From: Pontibacter fetidus
GTDB lineage: Bacteria > Bacteroidota > Bacteroidia > Cytophagales > Hymenobacteraceae
Direction of reading: 5' to 3'
DNA length: 64,000 nucleotides
Assembly (NCBI RefSeq): GCF_010119545.1
Contig: NZ_JAAEAA010000007.1
Coordinates: forward strand, 62,001-126,000
Below, piece after piece: positions 1-64,000 of the stretch; the stretch's first letter is position 1; each line of letters opens with the position of its first letter. The notes beneath the pieces were generated by a model, which saw only the letters and a list, made by a program, of their open reading frames with translations, did no database searches and had not been told where the DNA came from. A program made the position numbers and the translations under genes.

Positions 1-785
1 TGCGCAGCGTAGCCAACGTGCACCTGGAGTACCTGGCTAACATGAAAATTACGGCATCTATGTCGTTGCCAATTATTATCGAAGATAAACTATGGGGGCT
101 TATTTCCTGTCATCATAAAACAGCCAAATATCCCGGGTATGAGTTACGCTCTGCTATGGAGTTGTTAGCCGGTATACTGTCGGCACAGATAGAAGTGAAA
201 CAGCGCGTAGAGGATATGAGCCTGCGGGTACACCTGAGAAGCATCCATGTGAAGCTGATGGAGCAACTATATACATCTGCCAATTTTGCGGAAGGTATAC
301 TGGAAGGCAACACAACTATAGTTGACCTGTTATCGCTTTCTGGGGCAGTGGTAGCTTACGAAGGCAATACCTGGACCATCGGAACAACCCCGGATAAGCA
401 GGAAGTGAAAGATCTGCTTTCCTGGCTTCGCCGCACTAAAACAAGCGGTGTTTTTGCCACATCTTCGCTTCCGGTAGATTACCCCCACAGCAAAGATTAT
501 AAAGACGTGGCCAGCGGCCTGATAGCGTTACCAATTAATGCAGAGCAAGGCGATTTTATACTTGGTTTCAGGCCAGAACTGATACAGACCGTGAACTGGG
601 GTGGCAACCCTAACAATGCCATACAGATGGAGGCGGACGGAAAGTCGTATCATCCGCGAAATTCGTTTGAGATTTATAAGGAAACAGTAAAGAATACATC
701 GGCTACATGGCTACCGGAAGAACTGGCCGCTTCCGATACCCTGCGAAATGCAATACTGGAGAAGCTGATAAAGGAACGTTATTAA
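1..785 (+). CDS. bacteriophytochrome photosensory protein (3' part; ends after PHY, no kinase)
   Basis: The 5' end lies outside the window; the frame is open from base 3 and encodes about 260 residues. The first part is the end of a phytochrome GAF domain (HLEYLANM, then ASMSLPI and LWGLISCHH). A PHY domain follows, with FRPELIQTVNWGGNP and PRNSFE, the conserved tongue motif that contacts the bilin site. The protein stops at ILEKLIKERY, where most bacteriophytochromes continue into a histidine kinase, so it appears to be a sensory module without its own output domain. The chromophore-binding Cys region is not visible. The stop is 52 bp before the CheB-CheR-kinase gene and a lone receiver gene follows, suggesting that light signals pass to separately encoded partners (inference). 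Confidence 0.9.
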   Translation, partial: RSVANVHLEYLANMKITASMSLPIIIEDKLWGLISCHHKTAKYPGYELRSAMELLAGILSAQIEVKQRVEDMSLRVHLRSIHVKLMEQLYTSANFAEGILEGNTTIVDLLSLSGAVVAYEGNTWTIGTTPDKQEVKDLLSWLRRTKTSGVFATSSLPVDYPHSKDYKDVASGLIALPINAEQGDFILGFRPELIQTVNWGGNPNNAIQMEADGKSYHPRNSFEIYKETVKNTSATWLPEELAASDTLRNAILEKLIKERY

Positions 786-837
786 CCCAACAGGCAGAAC
801 AGGCAGAGACAGCAAAAAGGATTGATCAGAATTGAGA

Positions 838-4983: not shown

Positions 4984-5409
4984 ATGAAAAAGATTGCATC
5001 TATACTTTTGGTTGATGATGATGAGACCACAAACTATATCAGCAAACTGATTATTACCAGGGCTGGCCTGACTGATGAGCTCTTGATTGCCATGAACGGG
5101 AGGGAAGCCATTGAGCTGTTAAACGAACGATGCCAGGAAGCAACCAGTACAGGAGTTAACAAAGTGCCACAGCTTGTACTGCTGGACATTAATATGCCGG
5201 TGATGGATGGTTTTATGTTTTTGGATGCATTGCAGTCTGTGGAAGGTTTTGATAAAGATGCGGTAGTAGTTGCGGTACTGACAACCTCTTTGGATGCGCG
5301 CGATATAGCGAAGGTGAAAAATCTGGGAGTAACCGAATTTATCAGCAAGCCCCTCACAAAAGAGAGTTTGGAGAAACTGATAGACAGGCACTTTGACGTT
5401 ACGCTATAG
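4984..5409 (+). CDS. receiver-only response regulator
   Basis: A single CheY/Rcp1-like receiver domain of 141 residues with no output domain. The acidic triad is Asp11-Asp13 in LVDDDE. The phospho-acceptor is Asp68 in LLDINMPVMDG, followed by the conserved Thr in LTTS and Lys in FISKPL. The family passes phosphoryl groups from histidine kinases, and Rcp1-type receivers are commonly paired with phytochromes. It follows the CheB-CheR-kinase stop by 51 bp, the phytochrome lies just upstream, and a terminator follows. All three are plausibly co-transcribed. Its downstream target cannot be seen. Confidence 0.92.
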   Translation: MKKIASILLVDDDETTNYISKLIITRAGLTDELLIAMNGREAIELLNERCQEATSTGVNKVPQLVLLDINMPVMDGFMFLDALQSVEGFDKDAVVVAVLTTSLDARDIAKVKNLGVTEFISKPLTKESLEKLIDRHFDVTL

Positions 5410-5427
5410 GTACTGATTTCACAAAAT

Positions 5428-5453
5428 GCCTCTCCGCAACGGGAGGCTTTTTT
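5428..5453 (+). terminator. rho-independent terminator after the response regulator
   Basis: GCCTCTC and GGGAGGC form a 7-bp stem with one G-U pair around a six-base loop, followed by a run of T. It starts 18 bp after the regulator stop codon and would close the phytochrome-kinase-regulator transcript. Confidence 0.8.
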
Positions 5454-5562
5454 ATGGCTATAGTTGGCCATTGTAAAACTATGCCTGCCCCACTTAAGTT
5501 TACGCTCCAGCTTTACATTTAAGCTGCCTTACCGTAAACCAACCTATACATAAACTATAGCT

Positions 5563-5865
5563 ATGAAAACAATTACATTAAACAACTATAACACAATGCT
5601 GCTGCTGCACGGCAACGAGGCTACCAGAAGCTTATTTTTAAAAACTATAGTTGTAACAAAGTGGCCAGCCAGCGGCACTTTAACCCTTACCGTAACCGAC
5701 GAAAAGGATGTACCTATCTACAGCAAACACCTTACCCTACCTGGTACTGAAGGCGAAACTATAGTTGACCTGAACGAGAAGTTTGTGTTTTACGACCATA
5801 TAGCGGTGCATTTGGTTACAGAACCGGCAAACAGCCCCTACGAAGCCGAAATTGCATTTGAATAA
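5563..5865 (+). CDS. hypothetical protein, 100 aa
   Basis: A short protein I do not recognise. It has no signal peptide or membrane segment and looks rich in beta strand, with alternating hydrophobic stretches such as TLTLTVTDEKDVPIYSK. It starts at ATG 5563, stands alone after a terminator, and is followed by the promoter region of the nitrite reductase genes. Two copies of AACTATAGTT fall within it, encoding Thr-Ile-Val both times. Normal codon use and a clean start suggest a real gene. Confidence 0.6.
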   Translation: MKTITLNNYNTMLLLHGNEATRSLFLKTIVVTKWPASGTLTLTVTDEKDVPIYSKHLTLPGTEGETIVDLNEKFVFYDHIAVHLVTEPANSPYEAEIAFE

Positions 5866-5946
5866 CTTGTCGATCTTTAAACCAGCTATAGCTAGGGGTT
5901 AACTGCCAGTAAGTTTGTACTTCCATAGTTACGTATAGGATTTTAG

Positions 5947-12343: not shown

Positions 12344-12800
12344 AACAAAGGTAAATTACAATTGATAAGATACGCATTTTACTATAATTGCAACTATAGT
12401 AGCTGGAAATTTATACCCTGGTTTTTCAAACTGTTTACCTCGTGTATCTATCGTTACCTATAGTTTAAATAGTAATTTGAGCCGATGTATGAGGGTTTTG
12501 CTTTGTGTATGTTAATATAAAAATTGTTGTCACTCTTCTAACGAATGAAATCATTCATTCTGAAATCTATAGTTTGTGCTTTGGTATTTGGTGTGCCAGT
12601 ATTGTTGCTGTAAGCACATGAACTATAGTTTAAGCTCTGTTTTTTGTTTTTTAGAACTTTTGTAGCCAGTATTTTGTCGCAGAAAAAGAGTTGTGGCAGC
12701 TGTATACGGGAATAGTAAATTTCTGTTAATTTTACTCCTGCTAGTGGTTGGTGTGTGTAGTGGATATTTGTAATAATTTCTATAGTTTAACAGAAGTGCT
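12344..12800. other. gene-free stretch with a 14-bp palindrome
   Basis: No coding region was recognised. GAATGA-AA-TCATTC at 12543-12556 is a palindrome that could be a small operator. The stretch also holds many CTATAG copies and T-rich DNA. It separates a minus-strand gene from a plus-strand lipoprotein gene, so it should carry two divergent promoters. Confidence 0.45.
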
Positions 12801-14831: not shown

Positions 14832-14988
14832 CTTGCAATAGTTTAACAAGGTATGGTTTGATAAAATATAACTATAGTTATAAGCTGCTTCGTATTGATC
14901 TGGATATAATAAAACTATAGCAGATGGTTTTAGCTGATATAGTTTCTGTTAGATTAAAAGCATTTCCGGGGTAACTATAGGTTAAAGT

Positions 14989-15240: not shown

Positions 15241-15954
15241 GGCAGTAAAGGGTTAGGCTAAAAGAATAAACTGAATACAAAATACATTGTATGAAGGAAT
15301 TGTATTATGTAGTTTGATGTATTAACCTCACTTCCTGAATTTTTATTGTTTCAGTGCTTAACCTTTTTTATAGTACAACGTAGGCACCTGCCCACTTAAG
15401 TTACCGGGTTACAAAGGTCTCCCACTATAAAACTAGAGTAATGTTAACAGCAAAGGCTAAGCTATCGTCTAAACTCAACAATTTATAAATTGAGTATTTG
15501 AGCTGTGAAGATATTTGCAACTATAGTTCATTATAACAAGGGAAATGAGCAGTAACTATTGTAACATGTAAGCAACACTCTGGACATAATTTGCAATGAC
15601 AGCCGGAACTTAATTTAGTTAATAGCTAATGAGTTTGAGAGGAGGGTATGTAGAACCACAAAGTATATAAAACAAAAAAGGCTCCCCGTCTGGGAGCCTT
15701 TTTTGTTATGATAAGTTTATAAAAAACTTTTCAACTTTTAGCCATGTGTATTTACGGCCACTCTCCACGTAAGGTTACTGCTGTTGTGAAAATAATTTAA
15801 GTCTTATTTAAAAAAGTGCGCTTAACGTCTAGAATCAGGGTTTTTAAACATAAATTATTTTTCAGGCATCAGCCAGGTCCATAGCTTTTAGGTAGGTTTT
15901 GCAAGTAATAAGGTTAAATTATTAGCCACACCACTGCGAAAGTTAAAGGCACAA
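15241..15954. other. 714-bp stretch without a recognised gene
   Basis: No protein gene, tRNA or rRNA was recognised. The main feature is a perfect long hairpin terminator at 15671-15707 with no annotated gene before it. The DNA is AT-rich with CTATAG copies. It could hide a small RNA upstream of the hairpin. Confidence 0.5.
15671..15707. terminator. strong bidirectional terminator without an assigned gene
   Basis: A perfect 16-bp stem: AACAAAAAAGGCTCCC pairs with its complement around a five-base loop (CGTCT), with A and T runs at either side. No gene ends just upstream on the plus strand. On the minus strand it could stop transcripts coming from the MpaB-like region. Confidence 0.85.
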
Positions 15955-25430: not shown

Positions 25431-26561
25431 ATGAATTTGAAGCATACAGAACCGGGGTACATGGTTCAGTTAGATGGCCTCAGAGCCATTGCCGTAGCTA
25501 TAGTTATCCTTTTCCATTGGACGCCTGAGGTGAAAGAGACCGGGCTGGGTGGCCTGGGAGTGCAGCTGTTTTTTGTACTGAGTGGCTACCTGATAACGGG
25601 CATATTGCTGGATGCCCGCACAAAAGCGGAACATTTAGGAGCCAGTAAAGCACAGATCGTTAAAAGTTTTTATGCCCGTCGTTTCCTTCGAATCTTCCCG
25701 CTATATTACCTGGTTATAGGGGTGGCTGCACTGCTGGGTTCTTACAATGTGCTGCACTACCTGGGGTGGCACCTGGGCTATCTTACCAATTTTGCTATTT
25801 TCCGGGAAGGGTTCTGGATAGGAGAGGCCTCACATCTGTGGTCGCTTGCCGTGGAAGAGCAATTTTACCTGTTCTGGCCTTTTGTTATCCTTTTCACGCC
25901 CAGGCGCTACTTAACTGCAACTATAGTTGGGTTTATACTGCTTGCCCCCGTTTTTAAACTTACCTGCGCTTATTTTGATATAGGTGGGGCACGTCTGGGA
26001 GTATTGCCTATAAGTTCGTTTCATTACTTAGGGGCCGGTGCGTTGCTGGCTAAACTCGGGAAAAGCGAGCGGTTTAAACAGGATGCCGGCTGGCGTAAAA
26101 AGCTGGCTGTTACGGTTAAAGTGGCCGGTATAGTTGGGCTCACGTTCTTTACCTTATGCCAGTTTTACCCGCAGGTGTTAACCTTTAACGCTGCTATAGT
26201 TATTCTCCGCGAATTTGCCCTGATCTGTTTATTTCTGAGCATGACTATGGGTGCTGCCTATGGGTTTGATGGTTTAGGAGGTAAATTGCTGGCTTCCAAA
26301 CCAATGGTCTTTATCGGTCAGATCAGTTATGGGCTATACTTGCTGCATAATTTTGTACCCTATTTTATCACCAAACATTTTCAGAACAATAACATAGTAG
26401 TTGGTAAATCGCTGGGTTCGGGTGCGTTGCTTGTTGTCTATAGTTTGGTTTTGCTAGGGCTTAGTGCTGCTTCCTGGTTCTTTTTCGAGCGCAAATTGAA
26501 CAAGTATAAGAGCTGCTTTCCGTATGTACTAAAGCAGCAAAAGAAAGCAGTTATTGCCTGA
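25431..26561 (+). CDS. acyltransferase 3 family membrane protein
   Basis: A 376-residue OafA/NodX-type acyltransferase with about ten membrane helices: LDGLRAIAVAIVILFHW with the key His near the start, QLFFVLSGYLITG, YARRFLRIFPLYYL and SLAVEEQFYLFWP. These enzymes O-acylate cell-surface sugars. ATG 25431 is preferred to TTG 25398 because it follows AAGGA and begins the conserved region. It lies 148 bp after the GT39 gene, so it may decorate the same glycan but probably has its own promoter. Confidence 0.9.
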   Translation: MNLKHTEPGYMVQLDGLRAIAVAIVILFHWTPEVKETGLGGLGVQLFFVLSGYLITGILLDARTKAEHLGASKAQIVKSFYARRFLRIFPLYYLVIGVAALLGSYNVLHYLGWHLGYLTNFAIFREGFWIGEASHLWSLAVEEQFYLFWPFVILFTPRRYLTATIVGFILLAPVFKLTCAYFDIGGARLGVLPISSFHYLGAGALLAKLGKSERFKQDAGWRKKLAVTVKVAGIVGLTFFTLCQFYPQVLTFNAAIVILREFALICLFLSMTMGAAYGFDGLGGKLLASKPMVFIGQISYGLYLLHNFVPYFITKHFQNNNIVVGKSLGSGALLVVYSLVLLGLSAASWFFFERKLNKYKSCFPYVLKQQKKAVIA

Positions 26562-26767: not shown

Positions 26768-27988
26768 ATGACCATTCTTAGAGTACAGTTTTCATTGTTT
26801 CGCTGGGTTACAGCACTTGTTTTTGGTTTGCTACTTGTTTCGTGCCAGGGTTCGGAAGAGGAAAAGCTGCACGAACAGCTTACTGCGCAGCACGAAGACG
26901 AAACCCGGGAGACCATTGAAGTGCCGGCTTCGTTTACCGCCGCAAGTGCCAAAAAGCTCAACCACCAGCTCGATTCTATTTTTCATTACCTGCATAAAAA
27001 GAAAGGGTTTAACGGCACCGTGCTGGTTACCAAATACGACCAGGTGATGTACAAAGGCGCGTTTGGCTATGCTGATTTTCGCCCGAAAGATACGCTTAGC
27101 ACCGAAACCTCTTTTCAGCTGGCTTCGGTTTCAAAGCAGTTTACGGCTATGGCTGTAATGATGCTGAAAGAGCAGGGCAGGCTGAACTATGACGACAGCG
27201 TACAGCAATATTTACCAACTTTTCCGTACAAAGGCATCACCATACGCCAACTGCTCAATCACCGCTCCGGGCTGGCCAACTATACCTATTTCAGCGATGA
27301 ACTATGGCCCGACCGTAACAAACCCATTTCCAATACCGATGTGGTAGATATGATGGCCAAGCACCAGCCAAAAGTATATTACCAGCCCAACACACACTTC
27401 GATTACAGCAATACCGGCTATGCGCTGCTGGCCTCTATTGTTACAAAAGCCTCCGGAATGCCATTTGCCGTTTTTGTGCAGAAGTATATTTTTAAACCCC
27501 TGAAAATGGACCATACCTTTACTTACAGTAAGGATTTGGCAACTATAGCTGGCAAAGTAGCAACCGGGCACACCGGTGGCCGTCGCGAACGATACCCCGA
27601 TTACCTGGACACCGTGCTGGGCGACAAAGGCGTTTACTCTACGGTAGATGATCTGTATAAATGGGAGCAGGCGCTTTACACCCAGAAGCTGGTTAAAAAA
27701 GAAACCCTGCAGGAAGCATTTACCGGATCCCGGCCAGAAGCAAAGAAGAAAGAAGACTATGGTTTTGGCTGGCGCATAAAGCAGCTCGAGGATAGCGGCG
27801 ATACCGTGGTATACCATGCGGGTTTATGGCACGGCTACACGTCTTATCTGCTCCGTAATCCTAAAGACCATAGCGCCCTCATCATCCTGAGCAACGTGCC
27901 CAATGGCAGCTTAAATTACCTGGAAGAACTGCGTCGTTTCCTGTACCCGGCTAAGCAAAATACGGCAACGCTGGCCCACAAAAATTAA
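26768..27988 (+). CDS. class C beta-lactamase-like serine hydrolase (lipoprotein)
   Basis: A 406-residue lipoprotein (lipobox LLVSC) with a beta-lactamase/transpeptidase fold. Nucleophile motif SVSK has Ser120 and Lys123; YSNTGY supplies the Tyr-x-Asn and HAGLWHG the HxG-like third motif. The family includes esterases and D-amino peptidases as well as beta-lactamases, so the substrate is open. It is convergent with the M61 peptidase, seven bases apart, with a CTATAG palindrome between the two stop codons. Confidence 0.9.
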   Translation: MTILRVQFSLFRWVTALVFGLLLVSCQGSEEEKLHEQLTAQHEDETRETIEVPASFTAASAKKLNHQLDSIFHYLHKKKGFNGTVLVTKYDQVMYKGAFGYADFRPKDTLSTETSFQLASVSKQFTAMAVMMLKEQGRLNYDDSVQQYLPTFPYKGITIRQLLNHRSGLANYTYFSDELWPDRNKPISNTDVVDMMAKHQPKVYYQPNTHFDYSNTGYALLASIVTKASGMPFAVFVQKYIFKPLKMDHTFTYSKDLATIAGKVATGHTGGRRERYPDYLDTVLGDKGVYSTVDDLYKWEQALYTQKLVKKETLQEAFTGSRPEAKKKEDYGFGWRIKQLEDSGDTVVYHAGLWHGYTSYLLRNPKDHSALIILSNVPNGSLNYLEELRRFLYPAKQNTATLAHKN

Positions 27989-27995
27989 ACTATAG

Positions 27996-29831
27996 TTACT
28001 CCCTTAACCATGATTTCAGGATTTGCTGTTGCAGGGCTGTTGGGTTAGCGAGTGGTTTAGTCTCAAAGTTTTTAAGTTTCTGTTTGCCTATAGTGGCTTT
28101 TAGTTCTAGTTCCGGGCCTTTACCAGCTACCTGTAAGTTTACCAGATCGCCAGGTTTTGCCATGTTCATCAGTTTTTTATAAGTCTCTGCATCAGCCTTA
28201 GAGCCGTTAATTTTCAGCAATTTGTCGCTTTTTCTCAGTCCCGCATTCCAGGCCGGAGATTTCCAGTCTATGTCAGCTACCACTAAAGTATCGTCCTGCA
28301 TTCTGGTTGTAATGCCCAGGTAGGCGCCCGGCTGTTCTGTTGCGGTGGTGTCTATAGCCAGGCCTGCGTAAGCAAAGTATTTCGGGTAGTTTATAGGCTT
28401 GGTAGTGGCGGTATATTCTTTTAGTTCTGTTAACGGTGTGCCTGCCATTTTTTCGCTTGCTTCCCAATATTCTGCTTCGGTGTAGCCACGTCCTTTTTTC
28501 TGGTAGTATTCCTGGTACAGGTAGCGCATCACATCGTCCAGCGATTTCTGGTTTCCGGATTCGTGGCGTATCTTAAAATCAAGCAACATGTTGAGCACCG
28601 GCCCTTTGTCGTATACCGAGATGGTTTTATTAAATTCATCGGTAGTGCTGCCAAAAGGCCCGTCAGACCAGGTGTTGTAGCTTGCCTGCGTAGCCGACTG
28701 AAACAGCCTCCCGGATTTGTTCTCGTAAGCCATCATGTGTTTGCGCAGGGCATCCAGCACATCTTCCGGGGTTATCAGTCCGGCTTGTCTAAGCACTAAG
28801 TTTTCATAGTAAGAGGTGGCGCCTTCTGCTACCCATAGCATGTTTGTCCGGTTCTCCTTGTCGTAATCAAAAGGTCCCAGCTCTATGGGGCGGATGCGTT
28901 TAGCGTTGTAGTGGTGGTAGTATTCGTGGGCGATAAAACTTAACAGGCGCTTGCGGCCCTGGGGGTTGTTATATTCCGATCCTTCAAAACTGATGGTGGT
29001 TGAGTTCAGGTGTTCGATGCCGCCTCGGCCGGGTCCAATGGCAATAAAGGTGTAATGTCTGTAAGGAATATCCCCGATAAGGCTGCTGGCGCTTTCCACT
29101 ATCTTTTTTATGTCGGCCATAAACTGTTGCCTGTCAAAGTCGCCCAGCTGGTACCCGATAAACTGGTGCGGCAGGCCGTTTACGGTAAATTCGGGCAGGC
29201 GCTCCAGGTTACTTACAAGTATAGGGCTGTCGTATAGTTGGTCGAAGTCTGAAGCAAAAAACTGGTAAGGTTTGCCCGGTACAATGTCAAGTCCGGTGGC
29301 TACATCTTTCCAGTTTTTGTAGGGCGCTATAGTTACGGTAACGGGTTGGTTTAGTATGCCGGCAACATGCATAAACATACCCGCCGGCGAAATGTAGGCA
29401 CGCGTTGTATCGAGGTAATTTTTAGCTACAAACGGGGTAGGGGCTTTTACATCGTAGCGTAAGGCAATTTCAGATTTTCTGTTTTTATAAACCCGCCAGG
29501 TATTGGCATTTACTTTTTTCCATTTCAGCGTTTTGCCATCTTTGCCGCTGGCACTAAAATTATCCACGTTGTCGGCATAATTAAGCAGTTGGTAATAACC
29601 CGGCGTCCAGGCAGGCATTTTAAAATCTACCGAATCGGCTTTTGCTTTTTTGTAGTGCAGCTGTACCTGGAACGTTTGTGAAGCCGGATCATCCATCGAA
29701 ACCGTGTAGTGCATGTTACTTTTTCCGTTCTGCGCCAAAGCCGTAGCTGTAGTTGCAAGGCAAAACAGCAGGCATAGCACAAAAGTGTAGCCATGTTTTT
29801 GGAGCAGGGGAGTAACTATAGTTTTATACAT
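27996..29831 (-). CDS. M61 family metallopeptidase with PDZ domain
   Basis: A 611-residue exported zinc peptidase. A signal peptide (ends about ALAQ) leads a beta-rich N-terminal domain, then the catalytic domain with HEYYHH near residue 302 and the third-ligand region WVAEGATSYYENL. A C-terminal PDZ domain (about 505-585, with GAYLGITTR and SPAWNAGLRKSDKLLKING) follows. M61 enzymes are glycyl or acidic-residue aminopeptidases. It is divergent from the M1 peptidase gene. Confidence 0.93.
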   Translation of the reverse strand: MYKTIVTPLLQKHGYTFVLCLLFCLATTATALAQNGKSNMHYTVSMDDPASQTFQVQLHYKKAKADSVDFKMPAWTPGYYQLLNYADNVDNFSASGKDGKTLKWKKVNANTWRVYKNRKSEIALRYDVKAPTPFVAKNYLDTTRAYISPAGMFMHVAGILNQPVTVTIAPYKNWKDVATGLDIVPGKPYQFFASDFDQLYDSPILVSNLERLPEFTVNGLPHQFIGYQLGDFDRQQFMADIKKIVESASSLIGDIPYRHYTFIAIGPGRGGIEHLNSTTISFEGSEYNNPQGRKRLLSFIAHEYYHHYNAKRIRPIELGPFDYDKENRTNMLWVAEGATSYYENLVLRQAGLITPEDVLDALRKHMMAYENKSGRLFQSATQASYNTWSDGPFGSTTDEFNKTISVYDKGPVLNMLLDFKIRHESGNQKSLDDVMRYLYQEYYQKKGRGYTEAEYWEASEKMAGTPLTELKEYTATTKPINYPKYFAYAGLAIDTTATEQPGAYLGITTRMQDDTLVVADIDWKSPAWNAGLRKSDKLLKINGSKADAETYKKLMNMAKPGDLVNLQVAGKGPELELKATIGKQKLKNFETKPLANPTALQQQILKSWLRE

Positions 29832-33057: not shown

Positions 33058-33144
33058 TTTGCTAAACTGGCTGTAAATTGCTACTAACTATAGGTTTAGA
33101 TAAAAAATAACCCAGCCTGTATTTTAGGTTGAGGCTGTAAAATA

Positions 33145-34137: not shown

Positions 34138-34857
34138 TATGTTATTTTAAGTTAAAGAATTTAGTTCTGTCGGATTTATGCTGATACTGAACGGTTACTT
34201 TCCAGCACAGTTCCGGAATTTTATAGTTCAGGGCAAAATATGCCTGGGTTTTACCCGCTAAACCAAAACTGCAAGTAACCTTATTTTGCATGATAATAGC
34301 CTAAAGTTAAGCCAAAGAAGCCGTTTTGCAATAGCAGCCCAATTTAGTTTACAGTTCAGGTAGCTTTTATTGCCAGGCTATAGTTGCAGAAATTCTCTCG
34401 AAGCCATAGTTGCTATGCGGTTGCATTTGCTGTTTCAGATATCCTTGTCTGAAAGCGTGATGGGTTCATTTCAGGTTTTTGCCAATAGGTTGCCCTCGCT
34501 CACGTCCCGCGCGTCTGCATTACCTACGGAATCTGACCGCTTAGATATAGAGTATAATTCTGCTCAAACTATAGTTTGTCACGAGCGAAGACGCATGCGA
34601 CATGGCAAAAGAAATAATGGGTGCAAATACCCATCCTCTGAGGAGGCTATTCATCCTCTTTCTTGTTATCCTGTAAGGATCTTGCGGGTCAATAGCATAG
34701 GCTTAACCTAACCTTTTACCAAGTTTCTTTACAGGATGACAAAAAATTTATAACTCTATTTTCTAGCATGAAACGCACCTGCTCCTCAGCGTGAATAGAG
34801 GTTGGTTGAAGCCCCAAATGATTTTGTTAATTATCCAAAGCCATAGTTCAGGCAATA
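34138..34857. other. 720-bp stretch without a convincing gene
   Basis: A 113-codon frame (34370-34711) is open here, but its amino-acid pattern is irregular and its last third runs through a hairpin-forming sequence, so I do not accept it. The DNA looks like degraded or repetitive intergenic sequence, with several CTATAG and TATAGTT copies. The region separates two minus-strand genes. Confidence 0.5.
34663..34742. repeat. hairpin-forming intergenic repeat-like sequence
   Basis: TTGTTATCCTGTAA and TTACAGGATGACAA pair over 14 positions with one G-U pair, around a 52-base loop, followed by an A run. CAGGATGACAA-type ends are reminiscent of short intergenic repeats in related genomes (from memory, not checked). 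No second copy lies in this window. Confidence 0.4.
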
Positions 34858-35476: not shown

Positions 35477-37021
35477 ATGAAATTGCTTTATACGTTTATC
35501 TTTTTGATGCTTACCTTACCTGCCGTACATGCCGGCACTCTACCAGACAGCATCTCATTTACACCCGACACATTTAACCCGGACCTCAGCAGTAAAAAAC
35601 AGGTAGTGTCTTATTTCCATAAGCTGCCAGCCAGCCAAAACCAGATAAGCGCACTCCCGGAAACAGCCAAAAACTATAGTTCGTTTTCGCTGAAAGCCAA
35701 TCCGGACCAAAGCCAGCGCGCACCCCTCTGGAAACCTGTGGCAGAAGTAGCGGCGCTTAATGTGCTGTTTATGGGTTTTAACCGCTATGTGGCGAAAGCT
35801 GAGTACGGCTATGTAACCACCGATACCTGGAAACGCAACCTCACTACCAGGCCGGAATGGGATACAGACTTCTTTGGCATTAACTTTATAGGGCACCCGT
35901 ACCAGGGCACGCTATACTTTAATGCTGCCCGCACCCAGGGCTATAGTTACTGGCAGTCGCTGCCCTTTGCGGTGGGTGGTAGCCTTACCTGGGAATATTT
36001 CGGGGAGAATACACTTCCTTCTTATAACGACATGATCTATACGCCGTTAAACGGGGCTGCCCTTGGTGAGATTTTGTACCGCATCAGCACAAAAGTGTTA
36101 GACGACCGCACAACTGGCAAGGAGCGTGCCCTGCGCGAAATTGCAGCGGGTGTCATAAACCCGGTTCGTGGGTTTAACAGGCTGCTACAGGGAAGAACAT
36201 TTGCTGTAACCACCGAACAGCTATACGAGGAAGAGCCCGTAAACTTAACGCTGTTTGCCGGTGTGCACCGTTTTAATGCACATGAAAATGAAGTGTTCGG
36301 GGATGGCGGCAACAATGGCATGCTCAGTTTGCAGCTAGACTATGGAAGACCGTTTGAAGAGAAAAAACGTCAGCCCTTTGATTTTTTCAGGCTCCGCACC
36401 GAGTTTAGCATTGGCAAAGCAGATACCATTGGCAGCAGTATAAATAACGTAACAGGCTATGGCATACTGGCAGGCCATAACCTTAACGTAGGTAAACTGG
36501 CATTACTCACAGGGGCTTTTCAGTATTACGATTTCTGGAATACACGCAATTTTGAGCTGGGTGCGCTTGGCTTCGGCGGTGGTATTTTCTCTAAATACGA
36601 GGTCGGTAAAAGAACAAACATCTATACCAATGCGCACCTGGGCGTTATTCCGTTGGCCGGTAACAGCACCCGTTCAGCTCCCGATTCGCTGGGATTGCGT
36701 GATTATATTTATGCCACCGGCCTGCAGGGTAAAATAGAAAGTACGCTTGCCCTCAGCGATTATGCTACCCTGGCGCTGGTGTATTATCACTTCTGGCTGA
36801 ATACCTTTGATGGATTGGAGGGCACTAATTCCATCGGTATCTTCAGGCCCAGGGTTACTTTCCGGGTATTTAAAAACACAAGCATCGGGTACGAGCACTT
36901 TGGCTACACCACAAACCGGAAACTGGATGCATTCCCCGATCAGCACTCTGTTGTTACCGAACAGAAAGTATTTCTGCAGTTTTTCTGGGAAGCCCCGGAG
37001 CGCAGAGGCAGGTACAATTAG
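35477..37021 (+). CDS. DUF3943 domain outer-membrane-associated protein
   Basis: A 514-residue exported protein: a signal peptide (ends VHAG), then the DUF3943 region (LNVLFMGFNRYV, NFIGHPYQGTLYFNAAR, WEYFGENTLPSYNDMIYTPLNG) and a beta-rich C-terminal half of barrel type ending in FLQFFWE. DUF3943 proteins are probably outer-membrane proteins of unknown role. ATG 35477 is preferred to ATG 35453 because it begins the signal peptide. Confidence 0.88.
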   Translation: MKLLYTFIFLMLTLPAVHAGTLPDSISFTPDTFNPDLSSKKQVVSYFHKLPASQNQISALPETAKNYSSFSLKANPDQSQRAPLWKPVAEVAALNVLFMGFNRYVAKAEYGYVTTDTWKRNLTTRPEWDTDFFGINFIGHPYQGTLYFNAARTQGYSYWQSLPFAVGGSLTWEYFGENTLPSYNDMIYTPLNGAALGEILYRISTKVLDDRTTGKERALREIAAGVINPVRGFNRLLQGRTFAVTTEQLYEEEPVNLTLFAGVHRFNAHENEVFGDGGNNGMLSLQLDYGRPFEEKKRQPFDFFRLRTEFSIGKADTIGSSINNVTGYGILAGHNLNVGKLALLTGAFQYYDFWNTRNFELGALGFGGGIFSKYEVGKRTNIYTNAHLGVIPLAGNSTRSAPDSLGLRDYIYATGLQGKIESTLALSDYATLALVYYHFWLNTFDGLEGTNSIGIFRPRVTFRVFKNTSIGYEHFGYTTNRKLDAFPDQHSVVTEQKVFLQFFWEAPERRGRYN

Positions 37022-37153
37022 CAGCTGTATTACTTAACTATAGCTTCGCTGCTTAAACTATAGTTAAAACCATACCTTGGCTAAAGTAAGCTAAACTTTT
37101 GCAGATGCGGCTGTTTTTGTGTAACCTGTAACGTTAAAATAACTTCTCACCAG

Positions 37154-38881: not shown

Positions 38882-38966
38882 ACGATAGTCCTGTACAACT
38901 ATAACTATAGTTAATACATCAAAACTAAGTAACTTAAGGCCTGTAATCACCTACATTAATTACCCT

Positions 38967-41174: not shown

Positions 41175-41547
41175 CAAAATCAAGCTGTAAAGGCGCAGCT
41201 GTCGGTTCTACGGCATTGCCACTCTAAAACTGACCTACAAAGGCTCCCTGATGCGGGGAGCCTTTGCTGTTTGTGTAAGTTATAGTTTTAGAGATTAAAC
41301 ATCTTTACAAGAGATAATTAGCTAAGAATTCAGATCAAAAAATAAGAAGTGTCGTATAATTTTTACAGTAGCTTGCAAAACATAGTACCATGTAATATAT
41401 TAGTGTTGGCTTTCTGGCTTTTATTCTGCTGCTGGTAAGTGCGTTGCTTGCAGTTATATACAGATTGACCTGCTTCCATGGCTTGCTCGGCTAAGGTGCT
41501 TTTTTGGCTGGTAGCATAAATCAGAACTATAGTTACAAAATAAACCT
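41175..41547. other. intergenic stretch after the acylase
   Basis: After a terminator (41238-41266) nothing coding is convincing. One frame near 41420-41500 reads as a short hydrophobic peptide but has no standard start codon. The last part presumably holds the promoter of the ABC-M1 gene pair. Confidence 0.45.
41238..41266. terminator. terminator after the penicillin acylase gene
   Basis: CAAAGGCTCCC and GGGAGCCTTTG pair perfectly over 11 bp around a seven-base loop. It lies 63 bp after the stop. The GGCTCCC core is the same as in the hairpin at 15671. Confidence 0.8.
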
Positions 41548-46234: not shown

Positions 46235-47170
46235 ATGGAAAACAGAATTTTAGGCCTGCACCACATTACGGCAATTGCAGGTATGGCCAAACAGAATTTA
46301 GATTTTTATACCAAAGTATTGGGGCTTCGTTTTCTTAAAAAGACGGTAAACTTCGATGACCCTGGAACCTACCATTTCTATTTCGGGGATGAGAAAGGTA
46401 GCGCGGGAACTATACTTACCTTTTTCCCCTATGAAGGTGCCCGACGTGGAAGCGCTGGTACCGGTATGGCCACCAACATTGCCTACTCTGTGCCCGATGG
46501 CAGCTTTGATTTTTGGATCGACCGTTTCGAAAAGTACAATGTGATCTATAACAAACCATCCGAAAAATTTGGAGAAAAATACCTGACCTTTCTGGACCCC
46601 GACGGCCTGAAGCTGGAACTGGTGATTCCGAAAAAAGGCGATAACCGCAAACCCTGGGAAACCGATGAAGTGAAAGCTGAAGTGGCTACAAAAGGCTTCC
46701 ATGGCGTTACGCTCACACTACAGAACAAAGAAAAGACAGCGAAAATATTGACCGATATTTTTGGCTATAGTTTGAAGGAGCAAAGCGGCAACCGTTACCG
46801 TTACATCACCGATGCCGTCGAAACAGCGAACATCATAGACCTGGTAGAATTGCCAAACGAAGCGCGTGGCATTGGCGGAGCCGGTACCAACCACCACATT
46901 GCCTTCCGGGTAAAGAACGAAGATGAGCTGATGCATTTCCATGACAAGATTGCGGGGCTTGGTTACAACATCACCAACAAGATAGACCGGAACTATTTTT
47001 ACTCGCTATACTTCCGTGAGCCAGGTGGTGTATTGTTCGAAATAGCGACCGACAACCCTGGTTTTGGCATCGACGAGCCGTGGGATAAACTGGGAACAGG
47101 TTTGCTGTTACCGCCGCAGTACGAGGCACGCAGAGCCGAGATTGCAGCATCTTTACCAAAGCTTGACTAA
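46235..47170 (+). CDS. mhqO: VOC-family ring-cleaving dioxygenase (MhqO-like)
   Basis: A 311-residue protein with two vicinal-oxygen-chelate modules. LHHITAIAG opens the first with a metal His, TNHHIAFRV supplies the second, and FREPGGVLFEIATDNPGF the Glu. It resembles MhqO-type hydroquinone or catechol extradiol dioxygenases, which protect against quinones. It heads a five-gene run with a cupin, an MhqD-like hydrolase, a GNAT and a cyclase. The exact aromatic substrate is unknown. Confidence 0.88.
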   Translation: MENRILGLHHITAIAGMAKQNLDFYTKVLGLRFLKKTVNFDDPGTYHFYFGDEKGSAGTILTFFPYEGARRGSAGTGMATNIAYSVPDGSFDFWIDRFEKYNVIYNKPSEKFGEKYLTFLDPDGLKLELVIPKKGDNRKPWETDEVKAEVATKGFHGVTLTLQNKEKTAKILTDIFGYSLKEQSGNRYRYITDAVETANIIDLVELPNEARGIGGAGTNHHIAFRVKNEDELMHFHDKIAGLGYNITNKIDRNYFYSLYFREPGGVLFEIATDNPGFGIDEPWDKLGTGLLLPPQYEARRAEIAASLPKLD

Positions 47171-47218
47171 ACTATAGTTTAGAGCCACAGCCATTTTATA
47201 AAAGTTAAAAAGTATAGT

Positions 47219-49526: not shown

Positions 49527-49677
49527 TTAAGGATGCCTTAAAAGCGTACTTTCAAAATTGATCTGGAAAGCCAATTAAAGGTTGATCAGCTGGTATATAC
49601 AATATGTTTTGAGTTTTATGCACAATTAAAACTATAGTTGCAACTAACTCAGCCTGAGAACAGAAGAGCTGTAACTA

Positions 49678-50715
49678 TTATGCTTTTGTAACAGCCTTTT
49701 TAACGGCAGGTGCAACTATAGTTCCGAGTAACTCAATGGCGCGCATAACGCTGGCATGTGGCAGTGTGCCTACGCTCATGTGCAGCAGAAAACGCGTATT
49801 CCCGAACAACTCGTGTTCATACAATATCTTATCAATTACCTGTTGCGGATCGCCAACCAGTAAAGAACCTGTAGGTGCGCGCATCGTTTCATAGTGTGCT
49901 TTGTTCATCGGCGACCAGCCTCTTTCGCGGCCAAGTTTGCTCATCATATACGCATACGGCTCATAATAAATAGCTGCAGCTTTTTCGGCATCGTCGGCCA
50001 CAAACCCATGCGAATTGATAGCCAGCTGTAGTTTGGCAGGATCGTGACCGGCATTTTTGTAAGTTTCTTTGTATAAGTTAGTGAACGGTACAAAGCGCTC
50101 CGGCTCGCCGCCAATTATTGCCAGGGCCATAGGCAACCCGAGCGTTGCAGCACGCACCACCGATTGCGGCGTACCACCCACGGCTACCCAAATAGGTATT
50201 TCCGGCTGGTAAGGTCTTGGGTATACGCCCCGGTTATCTATAGCTGGCCGGTGTTTGCCTTCCCAGGTTATTTTTTCACTTTTATTCAGGGCCAGCAGTA
50301 GTTCCAGTTTCTCAGAAAATAGGGTGTCATAGTCTTTCAGATCGTTGCCGAAAAGCGGGAAAGACTCTATAAAAGAACCTCGGCCGGCAATTATCTCCGC
50401 TCTGCCCTTCGACAAAAGATCAACATGGGCAAAATCCTGGAAAACACGAACCGGGTCATCGGAACTTAAGACCGTAACAGCACTCGACAGCTTTATAGTA
50501 TTAGTTTTTACAGCCGCAGCTGCCAATACAACAGCCGGCGAAGAAACTATAAAATCAGGACGGTGGTGTTCTCCGATAGCAAAAACATCCAACCCTACCT
50601 GGTCTGCCAATGCTATTTCCTCCATCAGGTTTTGCATCCGTTCGTAAGCGCTAAGCAGTTTGCCGGTGGCAGGGTCCGGGGTATTCTCAACAAAGGTGGT
50701 AATTCCGATTTCCAT
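49678..50715 (-). CDS. LLM-class flavin-dependent oxidoreductase
   Basis: A 345-residue luciferase-like monooxygenase-fold protein: [14 protein letters not shown] at the start, [21 protein letters not shown]-like [11 protein letters not shown], and [25 protein letters not shown]. These enzymes use FMN or F420 with an NAD(P)H source; the substrate is unknown. The start is ATG at 50715; one 21 bases upstream lies almost against the operator. A perfect 16-bp palindrome sits at 50741-50756, just before the gene. It is divergent from the AraC regulator. Confidence 0.9.
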
Positions 50716-56614: not shown

Positions 56615-56697
56615 AACTAAAACGAGCGCTGTAAATGAAACGGAGAGGAATTGATAAGAAACTATAGCTAGGCGAACTATAACACATAACCCAACAA

Positions 56698-57195
56698 ATG
56701 GCAGCCAGAAAGTATAGTATAGATGCTGACATGATCCTGTACATTGTACGGTGTACCATAGGTTTCCTGGTTGGCTATACACTATACCAGGCTTTTCCGC
56801 AGTATGAACTATACTGGACAATACTTTCGATCCTACTTGTGCTGTCTCCGGAATTAAAGGATTCGCCTAAGCTTACCGTTGAGCGTGTAAAATCTAACCT
56901 GATCGGCTCCAGTGTTGGCCTTTTTTGTTTTGTGTTGCCAGTGCCCGAACTAGTAATGATGGTGTTAGGTATAGTCTTCGCCATTTTTGTATGCCATTTA
57001 TTTAACCTGATGAATGTGGCCCGTACAGCTGTGGTGGCGCTTATAATAGTTGTGATCCATGAGCAGGAAACCATGACCTATTGGGTAGCGGTAGAGCGCT
57101 TTTTATCGGTAACGCTGGGTTGCCTTATCGGGCTTGGTATTTCCATGGCTACCTCCTTTTTATCTGCTAAACTAATCAAGAAAACAAACCCGTAA
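56698..57195 (+). CDS. FUSC/aromatic-acid-exporter-like membrane protein
   Basis: A 165-residue membrane protein with about four to five hydrophobic helices: YIVRCTIGFLVGYTLY, YWTILSILLVLSPELKDS, VERVKSNLIGSSVGL and YWVAVERFLSVTLGCLIGLGIS. This matches half of a FUSC/ArAE-type permease (full members are longer). It lies inside the catechol operon, so it may move aromatic acids or pathway intermediates, but this is inference. It is 83 bp after the CoA-transferase and six bases before pcaF. Confidence 0.75.
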   Translation: MAARKYSIDADMILYIVRCTIGFLVGYTLYQAFPQYELYWTILSILLVLSPELKDSPKLTVERVKSNLIGSSVGLFCFVLPVPELVMMVLGIVFAIFVCHLFNLMNVARTAVVALIIVVIHEQETMTYWVAVERFLSVTLGCLIGLGISMATSFLSAKLIKKTNP

Positions 57196-57201
57196 TAAAC
57201 C

Positions 57202-60213: not shown

Positions 60214-61001
60214 GAAGACCCTTGCGCGTCGGCTTTTGTAAGTCTGTTGTAATAACTTACTTTAAAAGGTAGGTTAGCTAAAAACAGAACTATAGAGTCT
60301 GTAATCAGGTAGATCTCAAACTATATACACAATCCTTACAGCAATACAACAGCAATATCAATCTGTAATTTTATGTTTATTTATTGCATTTAAACATCTG
60401 GTCCTCACTATTTTCTGCTGTATAAAGAGTTACATTTCTTCAAGAAATATTTGTGTCCGTTTTTAATCCGAGACAAATCAGTACAATTCTGTATTGGATT
60501 GACGCTATCTTAACCTGTAACTTGCACAATGATTTTGATGCGCTAATACCAAGGTATAATTAAAGTATATAGCTTTTGCTGAAGCCGAACTATAGGTTGG
60601 TATTTGTTAAGCTAACAGGTTGAAATATATCTTATTAGTATCAGGATTCTTGACTTTTTAAAGTGTTAGAACTATAGCACTTCCCGCTTATCAGCTTCCA
60701 TTATAACTACCGAAAACAATGAAATTAAGCCTGCTTCTGCTTATAGTTGAAGCTTTTTGAGTTCAATACCAGATTTCAATTTATAGCCAAACCTTTACAC
60801 CCTCTTTATGAAACGATTTGCTGCCCTCTCTGCAGAGTGGGTCTGTGCGAAAGCTGTTACCATATTACAGCTGTCATTTAAGAAACTGCTATCCTTTGCA
60901 GTAAGGCATAACCCATTTGCAACAGTAGTTTATGTCGCCTTAAAAAGGAGCAAACTACTATATCTTCCTTCTAATAAGTAATCAACAACCAATCTTTTTA
61001 T
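60214..61001. other. 788-bp mostly gene-free stretch before the surface protein
   Basis: AT-rich DNA with several CTATAG copies (about 60290, 60590, 60672). A 57-codon frame (60808-60981) ends 20 bp before the surface-protein gene and is listed separately. No tRNA or clear terminator was seen. Confidence 0.45.
60808..60981 (+). CDS. possible small basic peptide (57 aa)
   Basis: An ATG frame of 57 codons reading [11 protein letters not shown] at the start and many Lys/Arg and hydrophobic residues after, for example LQLSFKKLL and [11 protein letters not shown]. It ends 20 bp before the large secreted-protein gene and could be translated from the same transcript or act as a leader. It has no recognised family and may be chance. 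Confidence 0.25.
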
Positions 61002-64000
61002 ATGAAACAATTTTACATGCAGCTATCTGTCTGGTGGGGTTATCTCCAATCCCGTGGATTTGCAAAACCAAAAGGGCTATTCCTGGTCCTTGCTTTCTTG
61101 TGTTCTATGCTCAATGCGCAGGCACAGCAGACGTTTACTTTTGACTATACTGGGAGTATAGTTGAGTGGACAGTGCCAGCTGGTGTGAATCACATCTCAA
61201 TTGAAGCAAAGGGCGCTCAAGGTGGTGATAATATTGCATTAAGCGGTGCTGGCGGGAAAGGCGCTTATATGAAAGGTAACTTTATAGTAACTCCCGGACA
61301 AGTATTAAGAATAGTTGTTGGCCAAATGGGGCAAAAGGCTACCAGTGGTAATCAATACAATGGAGCTGGTGGTGGTGGTGGTGGTAGTTTTGTTTGGGTC
61401 GATAACGAAGCACAGCCACTAATTGTAGCTGGTGGTGGCGGTGGATCAAGCCTACAGAATAATGGCGCGCCCCATTATCTGGGTAAAGATGCAGTGATTA
61501 CTAACAATGGAACAGGTAGTAGAAGCCATGATGTTAGCAATGATTCTCCTGGAGGGATAAACGGAAATGACGGTACAACTTTAACTGCATCTGGTGGTAA
61601 AGGATGGAATTCTGTTAAATTAGATCCATCAGGTACATTAGCCGGAAATTATGGTGGTCATGGAGGATTTGGTGGAGGAGGAGGAGCAGGCCGTATTTCT
61701 CCTAATTCTTGTAACTACTTACACATTGCTGGTGGGGGCGGAGGATACTCTGGAGGAGGCGCGGGAGGACAATGTTATTACTTTGGCGGCGGCGGAGGTG
61801 GTTCTTATAATTCTGGTACAGAGCAAGTTAATTCTGTTGGAGCAAACCCAGGAAATGGTAAGGTTGTTATAACGAATTTATATTCTGCATCTATTACAGA
61901 AACCAAATCCATCTCATGTGCTGGCGACGCCACTGGCGAACTTACCGCTACAGTTTCAGGTGGCACTGCTCCTTATACCTATAGTTGGTCTCCATCTGGC
62001 GGTACAGGTGCTGTTGCCAGTAACCTAACTGCCGGTACTTATACTGTAACGGTAACAGATGCGCTTGGTGCAGTAACCACTGCTACCAAAGAGATTAAAG
62101 TAAATGATACAGTAGCTCCTAAAATTACAGGCACAAAAGTGATTAATGTTCCAGCCGGGCAGTCAGCTAACTGGAATATGTATACATATAATTTCACTGA
62201 TCCGCTTCCGGCAGGTGCAGTTGTTACAGGAGTAACACTTGCTTATTCAGGTAACGACCAAGGATGGGGTGGAACAGGTGCATGGGCCAGAATGATAGTT
62301 TCGGAGACGCACATTGGATCTAGCCAGTTTTTTGGTAACAGCCAAAACTTCACGATAGAGTACAAGGGGGCATTACCACAGTATGTATATGGTGGAAATA
62401 ACTATATGCGCATGGATTTTGACACTTGGCCGGGTTGGGTAGCTTACTTTCACGGCGGTACCATGACTATTCACTACGAGATTGCAACGCTTCCAGACGT
62501 TACAGGTCAGTGCTCAGCTACGGCAGTTGCACCAACCGCTACTGATAATTGTGCGGGTACAATTATTGGTACAACTACCGACCCGTTAACGTACAACACC
62601 CAAGGCACACACGTAATTACCTGGAAGTTTGATGACGGCAATGGTAACATTACTACAGCTACACAAAATGTAATCATAGCTGATAAAACCAACCCAACTA
62701 TAACGGCACCAGCTACAGTAACAGTAAACACTGATGCAGGTAAAAACACGGCATCGGGTGTAGCGTTAGGCAACCCGGTAACAGCTGATAACTGCGAACT
62801 TGGCACTATTACCAACAATGCACCGGCTACGTTCCCGGTAGGTAACACCACTGTAACCTGGACCGCAACAGACAAAGTTGGGAACACGGCAACTGCAACG
62901 CAAATAGTTACAGTTGAAGATAAGGAAGCACCGGTACCAACTATAGCTACCCTGCCAGATGTAACCGGTGAATGCGCTGCTACAGCTACAGCTCCAACTG
63001 CCACCGACAATGTATCGGGCAATGTTACAGGTACAACTACAGATGCGCTAACTTATAGTGCACAGGGTACTTATACCATCACTTGGACTTATGCCGATGC
63101 GGCTGGCAACAAAGCTACGCAGCAGCAGAAGGTGATCGTGAAAGACATTACCAAACCAACAGTTGTTACCAAAAACATAACCGTTAACCTGGATGCGTCT
63201 GGTAATGCAACCATCGCGGCTGCTGATGTAAATAATGGTTCATCTGATAACTGTGCCATTGCTGCCAACGGCTATAGTTTAGATAAGACCAGCTTTACAT
63301 GCGCGAACGTTGGTAATAATACCGTAACCCTAATGGTTACAGATGCTGCCGGTAACACAGAAAGCAAAACAGCTATCGTAACGGTTAAAGATGTAACTGC
63401 CCCGCTTGCAAAAGCGAAGAATATCACCGTTCAACTGGACGCAAACGGTGCGGCAACTATAGCTCCGACTATGGTAGATAACGGTTCATCAGACCTATGC
63501 GGAGCCGTAACATTAGTGCTTTCTAAAACTACATTTGACTGCACAAATCTTGGTACGAACACAGTTACTTTAACTGTAACAGATGCAGTTGGAAACGAAA
63601 GCACAACAACAGCTACCGTAACTGTAGAAGACAAAGTTGCCCCGCTGGCAAAAGCGAAGAACATCACGGTTCAGCTGGATGCAACTGGTAACGCCACTAT
63701 AGTTGCTGCCGATGTAAATGACGGTTCAACTGATAATTGCGGAATCAAAACTATAGGCCTTTCTAAATCTACTTTCGATTGCAGCAATGTTGGCGAGAAC
63801 ACAGTTACTTTAACGGTTACAGATATCAGCGACAACGTACATGATGCTACAGCTATAGTTACTGTAGAAGACAGAGTAGCTCCGGTAGTTATCACCCAGA
63901 ACATCACCGTTCAGTTAGATGCAACTGGCAATGCTACCATCACGGCAGATGAGATAAACAATGGCAGCACGGATGCCTGCGGAATTAGATCTGTGAGCCT
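61002..64000 (+). CDS. large secreted glycine-rich / HYR-repeat surface protein (3' end outside window)
   Basis: At least 999 codons, open at the window edge. It has a signal peptide (ends NAQAQQ). A glycine-rich region (about 50-285) has many GGGG runs. Then comes a SprB/PKD-type repeat (about 300-365, [29 protein letters not shown]). A jelly-roll-like segment (370-490) follows, then HYR-type Ig repeats with ATDNC and [12 protein letters not shown] signatures. The last three units begin at 63421, 63661 and 63901, exactly 240 bp apart, with another at 63175. Such proteins are surface adhesins or type IX secretion cargo; the sorting domain would lie beyond the edge. ATG 61002 begins the signal peptide. 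Confidence 0.85.

Follow-up and report, generated by a model that had tools for sequence, protein, structure and literature searches.

The question raised by this locus is why the hexamer CTATAG recurs so often in a 64,000-nucleotide stretch of the Pontibacter fetidus genome (the window). The original prediction held the hexamer, often extended to a 10-bp palindrome, to be over-represented and HIP1-like, and this was borne out as far as abundance is concerned. The window contains 118 copies of CTATAG with respect to 15.6 (sd 4.2) in dinucleotide shuffles, none of 100 shuffles being as high, and under both first- and second-order Markov models it ranks first among the 6-mers of the window in over-representation. 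The palindrome AACTATAGTT was found 19 times as compared to 0.12 expected, and the six hexamers predicted between 5404 and 5891 are all present (at 5404, 5458, 5555, 5645, 5759 and 5886). The excess extends to the whole genome, in which 1087 copies of AACTATAGTT were counted vs. 5 of the reversed control. The window gave no Rfam match at gathering scores and no tRNA.

Table 1. Positions of the word and its forms in the window.
Feature	Position	Strand	Remarks
CTATAG, 118 sites	1..64000		spread over the window
ARSTATAR, 253 sites	1..64000	144 on +, 109 on -	reversed control 11
Six CTATAG copies	5404..5891		stretch counted in the original prediction
Cluster of five CTATAG	12394..12785		outside called ORFs
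AACTATAGTT	314..323
AACTATAGTT	5643..5652
AACTATAGTT	5757..5766
AACTATAGTT	12621..12630
AACTATAGTT	14870..14879
AACTATAGTT	15519..15528
AACTATAGTT	25919..25928
AACTATAGTT	27988..27997
AACTATAGTT	29814..29823
AACTATAGTT	32191..32200
AACTATAGTT	33050..33059
AACTATAGTT	34567..34576
AACTATAGTT	35672..35681
AACTATAGTT	37056..37065
AACTATAGTT	38903..38912
AACTATAGTT	41525..41534
AACTATAGTT	47170..47179
AACTATAGTT	49630..49639
AACTATAGTT	49714..49723

Around the 118 hexamers, A is found at position -2 in 84 cases and at position -1 in 68, and the half site AACTATA is itself enriched 15-fold in the window (189 vs. 12.4, both strands). The flanks matter, the word found across the genus is mostly non-palindromic, and the palindrome is not the basic unit. 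The central TATA is near-invariant: of the six single changes that could occur at positions 4-5, one was seen, a single time. When the degenerate form ARSTATAR was counted in the genome of P. fetidus, 8365 + 8207 copies were found on the two strands, as compared to 496 + 550 of the control. In the five rich genomes that were sampled, CTATAG itself occurs at 1.1-1.4 copies per kb.

The word is spread over most of the genus. Among 50 Pontibacter genomes, ARSTATAR exceeded the reversed control at least 3.6-fold in 40, 1.9-2.8-fold in six and at most 1.5-fold in four; the genomes without the word are G026, G028, G067 and G068. The same count in five other genera of the family gave at most 1.4-fold in all 154 genomes. 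The word is made up of three lineage-variable letters followed by TATA or TATG, and three dialects were distinguished: AAGTATA in 21 genomes, AGGTATA in 12 genomes of one clade, and AACTATA in seven genomes of another, which includes P. fetidus. The overlapping inverted form of AACTATA is the palindrome AACTATAGTT, which is abundant (more than 200 copies) only in the AAC clade, that is in 7 of 50 genomes; outside it, G071 contains 104 copies. The AAG and AGG dialects are non-palindromic, and AAGTATAA reaches 3529 + 3501 copies per genome; in the richer genomes, the strand counts agree within about 13%. In a phylogeny based on one gene, rpoB, the AAC clade (7 genomes) is supported by 100/100 and the AGG clade (12 genomes) by 100/99, and the dialect labels, of which AGG was assigned directly in seven of its 12 genomes and by exclusion in the remaining ones, require 8 changes vs. 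25.9 when shuffled (none of 200 shuffles as low). The dialects are nonetheless blurred: AACTATA is raised also in G071, G004, G061 and G006, AAGTATAA is raised in P. fetidus (1080 + 1045), and two dialects occur together in G033 and G027. We favour the view that a recognition word is iterated across the genus and that CTATAG and AACTATAGTT are its local dialect.

The sites are not confined to genes or to one reading direction. In the P. fetidus loci examined, window included, 94 of 225 CTATAG copies fell outside called ORFs, and the other 131 were found in both stop-free frames (85 and 46). Site density was 1.56 per kb in coding DNA, 4.6 in co-directional, 5.1 in divergent and 11.1 in convergent spacers, a rise towards DNA that is probably less constrained, while permuted heptamers gave 0.18-0.44 per kb and were about 9- to 26-fold rarer than the word. 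Since the sites lie on both strands, in open frames and more densely outside genes, and far exceed the permuted heptamers, codon or dipeptide bias was rejected as the explanation, in agreement with what had been predicted, and the DNA-level or drive-like process also predicted is supported. A gene-sense excess of AACTATA is left over: 607 sense and 324 antisense copies in five AAC genomes, the permuted comparison being 1989 and 1737 (odds ratio 1.6, p 8e-11). A promoter role was considered and dropped, as divergent spacers had no clear excess over co-directional ones (5.1 and 4.6; 3.6 and 3.7 per kb). The word is scarcer in DNA that was presumably gained recently: in seven loci that surround restriction-modification genes, coding density was 0.66 per kb (0.2-1.4 each) vs. 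1.86 in 24 others, two of the seven not being word-poor.

An oriented excess of this kind might be expected of a Chi-like or other recombination-control sequence read by a helicase-nuclease, and the word is short, dense, lineage-variable and densest outside genes. However, AAGTATAA had no gene-strand skew in G071 (52 sense, 50 antisense) and G008 (33 and 43), gene strand serving here as a proxy for leading and lagging strands, on which whole-genome strand totals are uninformative. Moreover, the word is enriched 10-80-fold over control, which is far above Chi, and we consider this explanation improbable.

Comparison of orthologous sites showed that the dialects replace each other in place. AAGTATA and AACTATA were exchanged at 8-16 sites per test, with an odds ratio of 22-48 over control and p from 1e-8 to 3e-17 (six tests, four genome pairs), and AAGTATA and AGGTATA with an odds ratio of 4-8 (four tests, two pairs). 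In the same-dialect control pair G031-G065, only 1 of 177 sites had switched (odds ratio 1.6, p 0.49). Site turnover between species is high, which, like the gene-sense excess of AACTATA, would suit context-dependent mutation or codon bias. This origin is nevertheless very hard to credit, because most positions of a word of 7-8 letters are favoured, the G-C transversion is favoured before TATA and rare before other letters, and the sites occur in open frames on both strands and more densely outside genes.

Coding sites were kept above permuted heptamers in all nine AAC-clade comparisons and in G071-G008, whereas intergenic sites showed no consistent conservation above control. The former result is consistent with weak selection on each binding site of a nucleoid or chromosome-organising protein, as are the fixed-spacing dyad, the near-invariant core with graded flanks and the specificity that switches in place. 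On the other hand, the 16,572 ARSTATAR sites in 4.07 Mb would leave a tiny value to each, the word is near-absent from four congeners, and the intergenic sites do not fit. Neither even spacing nor pair repulsion of the sites was seen, the sites being slightly clustered instead. We regard such a protein as an unlikely cause.

A further explanation follows from what Elhai proposed for HIP1: an orphan DNA methyltransferase would mark CTATAG and its counterparts in the other dialects, and mismatch repair directed by this methylation would favour new sites. The six-letter core with weaker flanks, the near-invariant central TATA and the palindrome of the AAC clade are HIP-like, as is the patchy distribution, alternate HIPs being sporadic in cyanobacteria too (PMC4390886). 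According to Elhai 2015 (PMC4390886), each cyanobacterial genome with a highly over-represented word encodes one or more putative methyltransferases that could modify this word, although the CGATCG enzyme is lacking in some HIP1-rich genomes. We searched the 50 genomes for PF01555, PF02384, PF07669 and PF00145 and found none with a member shared by all five genomes richest in the palindrome, although different enzymes may have one specificity. PF01555 is absent from G060, G065, G031, G018 and G033; PF02384, among the matches listed, and PF07669 were judged to have no long member common to the five. A PF00145 enzyme of about 540 aa is common to G000 and G018 (72% identity), but the G060 and G065 loci examined contain only distant relatives (23-38% over 55-217 aa) and the G031 copy is in two pieces in different frames. 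This C5 enzyme, found in P. fetidus, G018 and G033, was consequently rejected as the driver; it also occurs in G013, G032 and G026, all without the palindrome. A type IIG restriction-methyltransferase of 1161 aa (weak PF07669 matches) was set aside, as the PF07669 search gave no such match in G060, G065, G031 and G018, four of the five richest genomes. The AAG and AGG dialects being non-palindromic as well, we regard this explanation, like the nucleoid protein, as unlikely. The description as HIP1-like holds only in part: the palindrome is abundant in the seven-genome clade, but the wider-spread form of the word, unlike HIP1 (PMC4390886), is non-palindromic, and no accompanying methyltransferase was found in the four families. 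No literature match combined CTATAG, methylation and genome as whole words. The matches of the 10-mer, among those listed, all concerned malaria by title, presumably as a primer sequence.

The occurrence of the word throughout most Pontibacter genomes, with a one-letter difference from branch to branch, suggests that it is recognised by a cellular component and thereby propagated, as are uptake sequences in other bacteria. Our leading, still tentative, reading is that a sequence-recognising system whose specificity evolves, most likely one of DNA uptake, spreads the word by molecular drive. A single protein or machine, its specificity drifting, would give alleles that match the word a small fixation advantage at each permissive position, and the word would accumulate without a job at each site. 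The most likely machine would be sequence-biased DNA uptake followed by recombination, that is natural transformation, as with the uptake sequences of Neisseriaceae (DUS) and Pasteurellaceae (USS). In the AAC clade the receptor would prefer AACTATA, and AACTATAGTT, being two overlapping inverted copies of it, would be an especially good site. Word abundance in congeners, clade dialects, in-place switching, density in permissive DNA, the low density around restriction-modification genes, the lack of even spacing and the parallels with DUS make uptake a serious possibility that still falls short of being probable.

Several observations count against uptake. Spaced inverted pairs are common for DUS, at terminators, but in the window AACTA N1-14 TAGTT was found only 3 times vs. 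19 without spacer. The absence of gene-end bias, the inconsistent intergenic conservation and the blurred dialects weigh in the same direction, the slight clustering of sites is not obviously predicted by uptake of whole fragments, and Pontibacter was not mentioned among the matches listed. The analysis identified no recognising protein. All 50 genomes contain the ComEC domain, which is free of interruptions in the four word-less ones and thus does not co-vary with the word; in word-bearing G009 and G022 the domain has a stop, and in word-rich G018 its open frame spans only 561 aa, as compared to about 700 in most others. A regular-expression scan of the loci examined, a small part of each genome, detected no PilB/PilT-type ATPase, and its three pilin-motif matches were judged spurious.

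For Neisseriaceae, PMC3630211 describes eight DUS dialects that agree with phylogeny and share an invariant core, copies in the thousands, inside and outside genes, and overlapping dyads in S. muelleri. The Pontibacter word likewise has thousands of copies, in genes and between them and on both strands, phylogeny-following dialects one or few letters apart around a conserved core, two-dialect genomes, overlapping dyads and word-less relatives (PMC3630211). Like the USS, it is dense, commoner outside genes and variable among lineages, with one orientation commoner in reading frames (PMC2346458), but it has no gene-end bias. Exact-word density is comparable to that of DUS, from 0.3 per kb (AACTATAGTT in P. 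fetidus) to 1.4 per kb (AAGTATAA in G013). The bearers of the Pontibacter word belong to another phylum, the Bacteroidota. An uptake-sequence system, or an equivalent self-propagating word, may have arisen independently in Pontibacter, with at least three species-group dialects, sites that switch in place and, in one clade, a palindrome resembling a HIP, although we advance this with reserve.

To our knowledge, the only iterated words with dialects described so far are the uptake sequences of two proteobacterial families and the cyanobacterial HIPs. Pontibacter extends them to a further phylum. Its 50 genomes include three clear dialects, branches in which the word has faded and sites that have switched in place, and its word is a natural experiment on how iterated words start, spread, change and die. 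If the word serves uptake, transformation isolated by dialect would exist in Bacteroidota; if it does not, a process new to knowledge would be pushing thousands of sites through a genome. Should an uptake-like word indeed have arisen here independently, HIPs and uptake sequences may be outcomes of one kind of drive.

The hexamer CTATAG was strikingly over-represented in the window, as the original prediction had stated. In fact, 118 copies were counted as compared to 15.6 expected from dinucleotide shuffles, and a recount of positions 5404-5891 gave the same six copies. Forty of the 118 sites lie outside called ORFs (calls followed a simple longest-ORF rule). The palindrome AACTATAGTT, which extends CTATAG, occurs 19 times in the window (0.12 expected from dinucleotide shuffles) and 1087 times in the whole Pontibacter fetidus genome (G000; 4.07 Mb, 49 contigs), as compared to 5 copies of the same word read backwards, used as reversed control. 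The degenerate word ARSTATAR was found 253 times in the window (reversed control, 11) and at 16,572 sites in the genome, about 4 per kb. The tetramer CTAG is heavily depleted in the window (1-64000; 68 vs. 294 expected, both strands).

Within the window, the central TATA of the palindrome hardly varies: counting mirror positions, positions 4 and 5 allow six single changes, and just one of these occurred, a single time. At position 3, C may be replaced by G (5 sites, 21-fold above expected), and at position 2, A by G (19 sites, 96-fold); the outermost A is flexible. The distance between half sites is fixed, AACTA and TAGTT being abutting 19 times and separated by 1-14 bases 3 times. The AACTATA half site by itself is about 15-fold enriched (189 vs. 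12.4, both strands).

The palindrome is local, not genus-wide. More than 100 copies of AACTATAGTT were present in 8 of the 50 genus genomes (G018, 1477; G060, 1300; G031, 1164; G065, 1124; P. fetidus; G027, 330; G033, 232; G071, 104) and 0-28 in the remaining 42. A phylogeny based on one gene, rpoB, unites seven of these eight genomes in a single clade (support 100/100), to which G071 does not belong. Pontibacter sp. Tf4, whose locus holds the nearest relative of a window thiolase (91% identity, top match among 80 listed loci of public species genomes), has 30 CTATAG and 5 AACTATAGTT in the 21 kb surrounding the homologue. The ARSTATAR-type word is genus-wide, exceeding its reversed control 3.6-15.8-fold in 40 of the 50 genomes, 1.9-2.8-fold in 6 and 1.0-1.5-fold in 4. 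The comparison with sister genera proposed with the original prediction gave 0-8 copies of AACTATAGTT in each of 154 genomes from five other genera of the family, none of which exceeded 1.4-fold for ARSTATAR (highest by reading, 1.37 in G076).

Counts of k-mers in fetched stretches revealed related words in other lineages, AAGTATAA in G008, G071, G033 and G027, and AGGTATAG in G011. AAGTATAA reaches a maximum of 3529+3501 copies in G013 (reversed control, 35-183 per strand over 50 genomes). Genomes were given dialect labels from whole-genome counts: none (ratio <1.5, 4 genomes), weak (ratio <3, 6), AAC for AACTATA (>200 palindromes, 7), AAG for AAGTATA (>1000 AAGTATAA, 21) and AGG for AGGTATA (the remaining 12, by exclusion). 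On the rpoB tree, AAC and AGG genomes each form one clade (support 100/100 and 100/99), and the labels none, AAG and weak require 2, 6 and 5 changes, the weak label being hardly clustered (86/500 shuffles equally low). All labels jointly require 8 changes vs. 25.9 when shuffled, with 0/200 shuffles equally low. In 7 of 12 AGG genomes (G011, G059, G063, G005, G003, G029, G017), the AGG word itself ranked first among 8-mers; its signal was weak in the 20 kb sampled from each of G016 and G009, and G010, G015 and G066 carry the label purely by exclusion. The dialects track the tree with blurred borders: although placed in the AAC clade, G027 and G033 are rich in AAGTATAA, P. fetidus also holds 1080+1045 copies of it, and AACTATA is elevated outside the clade in G071, G004, G061 and G006. 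GGGTATA in G069 and words around TATATAA in G068, both weaker, may be further weak dialects. A dispersed element of about 35 bp, with 12 copies in 107 kb of G026, was observed in the word-less clade. Locations are collected in the table.

Features of the window and of congeners, with their locations
Feature	Location	Remarks
ORF joining CheB, CheR, PAS domains and histidine kinase	window 832-4932	1366 aa
ORF with weak ABC-2 membrane and M1 peptidase similarity	window 42444-46040	1198 aa; both slightly below Pfam cut-offs
Cluster resembling aromatic-compound breakdown	window 51910-58410	enolase-superfamily (muconate-cycloisomerase-like) enzyme, catechol dioxygenase, CoA transferase, thiolase
C5 methyltransferase (PF00145)	G000, L131:7859-9469	about 540 aa; also G018, G033, G013, G032, G026; two pieces in G031 (loci L131-L134 and L139-L141 for all these genomes)
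Type IIG restriction enzyme-methyltransferase	G000:C47 about 176.9-180.4 kb (L191:8892-12377, minus), outside window	1161 aa; PADLOC PDLC03627, 1550 bits
ComEC match with internal stop	G009, C76:160505-161305
ComEC match with internal stop	G022, C1:2771217-2771876
GGGTATA favoured	G069, L257, L258, L264
TATATAA-type words	G068, L249-L252, L261
Dispersed element	L241-L244 (G026), L253 (G067)	CTCCGGAG-like palindrome, T run, ATTAGAATAAT

Dialects are exchanged in place. In aligned stretches where the last four letters TATA were retained, AACTATA in G018 stood opposite AAGTATA in G033 at 16/73 sites, vs. 13/2084 for the control, AAG followed by a tetramer other than TATA (odds ratio 45, p 3e-17). 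Odds ratios were 22-48 for AAG-AAC (six tests, four genome pairs), 4-8 for AAG-AGG (four tests, two pairs) and 1.6 for the same-dialect pair G031-G065 (1/177, p 0.49). Mutation bias does not readily account for such a context-favoured G-C transversion, which is predicted by a shift in recognition.

Coding sites were conserved more than permuted heptamers in 9/9 AAC-clade comparisons (e.g. G018-G031, 72/113 vs. 267/638), as was coding AAGTATA between G071 and G008 (49/105 vs. 189/883); intergenic sites showed no consistent excess over control. The off-dialect word was often conserved below control (coding AAGTATA in G000-G031, 10/55 vs. 306/790). Placement was analyzed in sample stretches, many surrounding rpoB. 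In five AAC genomes, AACTATA amounts to 1.56 per kb in coding sequence and 4.6, 5.1 and 11.1 in co-directional, divergent and convergent spacers, as compared to means of 0.18, 0.44, 0.41 and 0.43 for 40 permuted heptamers; the corresponding values for AAGTATA in G071, G008 and G013 are 1.53, 3.7, 3.6 and 6.1 (permuted controls, 0.16, 0.34, 0.32 and 0.27). Sites are not evenly spaced (coefficient of variation 1.3-1.7), and close pairs slightly exceed redealing within categories (1.0-1.7-fold). Coding density per kb was 0.66 in seven loci surrounding restriction-modification genes (0.2-1.4 each), 1.20 in the 5 loci surrounding rpoB and 1.86 in the remaining 24. A gene-end bias was looked for and none was seen. 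AACTATA is in excess in gene sense (607 sense/324 antisense vs. permuted 1989/1737; odds ratio 1.6, p 8e-11), and AAGTATA lies slightly below permuted words (226/205 vs. 998/699, p 0.02).

According to excerpts of Elhai (PMC4390886), any cyanobacterial genome in which a word is highly over-represented also had a putative methyltransferase able to modify that word, and methylation-directed repair was the mechanism proposed. We surveyed four methyltransferase families (PF01555, PF00145, PF02384, PF07669) across 50 genomes for this highly iterated palindrome model, in which a methyltransferase modifies the word and methylation-directed repair propagates its sites. PF01555 was absent from 4 of the 5 richest genomes, the PF00145 enzyme of P. 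fetidus and G018 had just distant relatives among the fetched loci of G060 and G065 and was split in G031 (two pieces in different frames), and PF02384 and PF07669 matches, by reading, were not the same across the five. Since different enzymes could have one specificity in common and further families exist, the model is only weakened. The type IIG protein of P. fetidus is 78-94% identical to proteins of 13 other fetched congeners, with a piece in G017. Its nearest match (94%) is in the distantly related G006, which suggests transfer.

Taken together, the number of sites (thousands), the mild preference at most positions, the in-place dialect change, the fading in some branches and a density that peaks in probably unconstrained sequence lead to the inference of molecular drive by an agent recognising the word. 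Several observations count against sequence-biased DNA uptake as this process: the ComEC domain is unbroken in all four word-less genomes, ComEC matches of word-bearing G009 and G022 contain internal stops, ComEC of word-rich G018 lies in a shorter open frame, and spaced inverted pairs are nearly absent from the window. A scan of the fetched genome parts, a weak test, identified neither a pilin nor a pilus ATPase. For these reasons we hold spread by uptake as a tentative reading, somewhat short of an even chance. Among the open-access matches listed, there was no account of this word, of Bacteroidota uptake sequences or of Pontibacter iterated words. Sequence-biased DNA uptake is the process known to have such an effect. 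The likeness to the dialects of Neisseriaceae DNA uptake sequences is close, and in the excerpts of PMC3630211 extends to mixed-dialect genomes and overlapping dyads; that uptake bias alone may accumulate such words is already published (excerpts of PMC1939737). A recogniser of the word would spread its sites by molecular drive, and sequence-biased DNA uptake is the candidate process.
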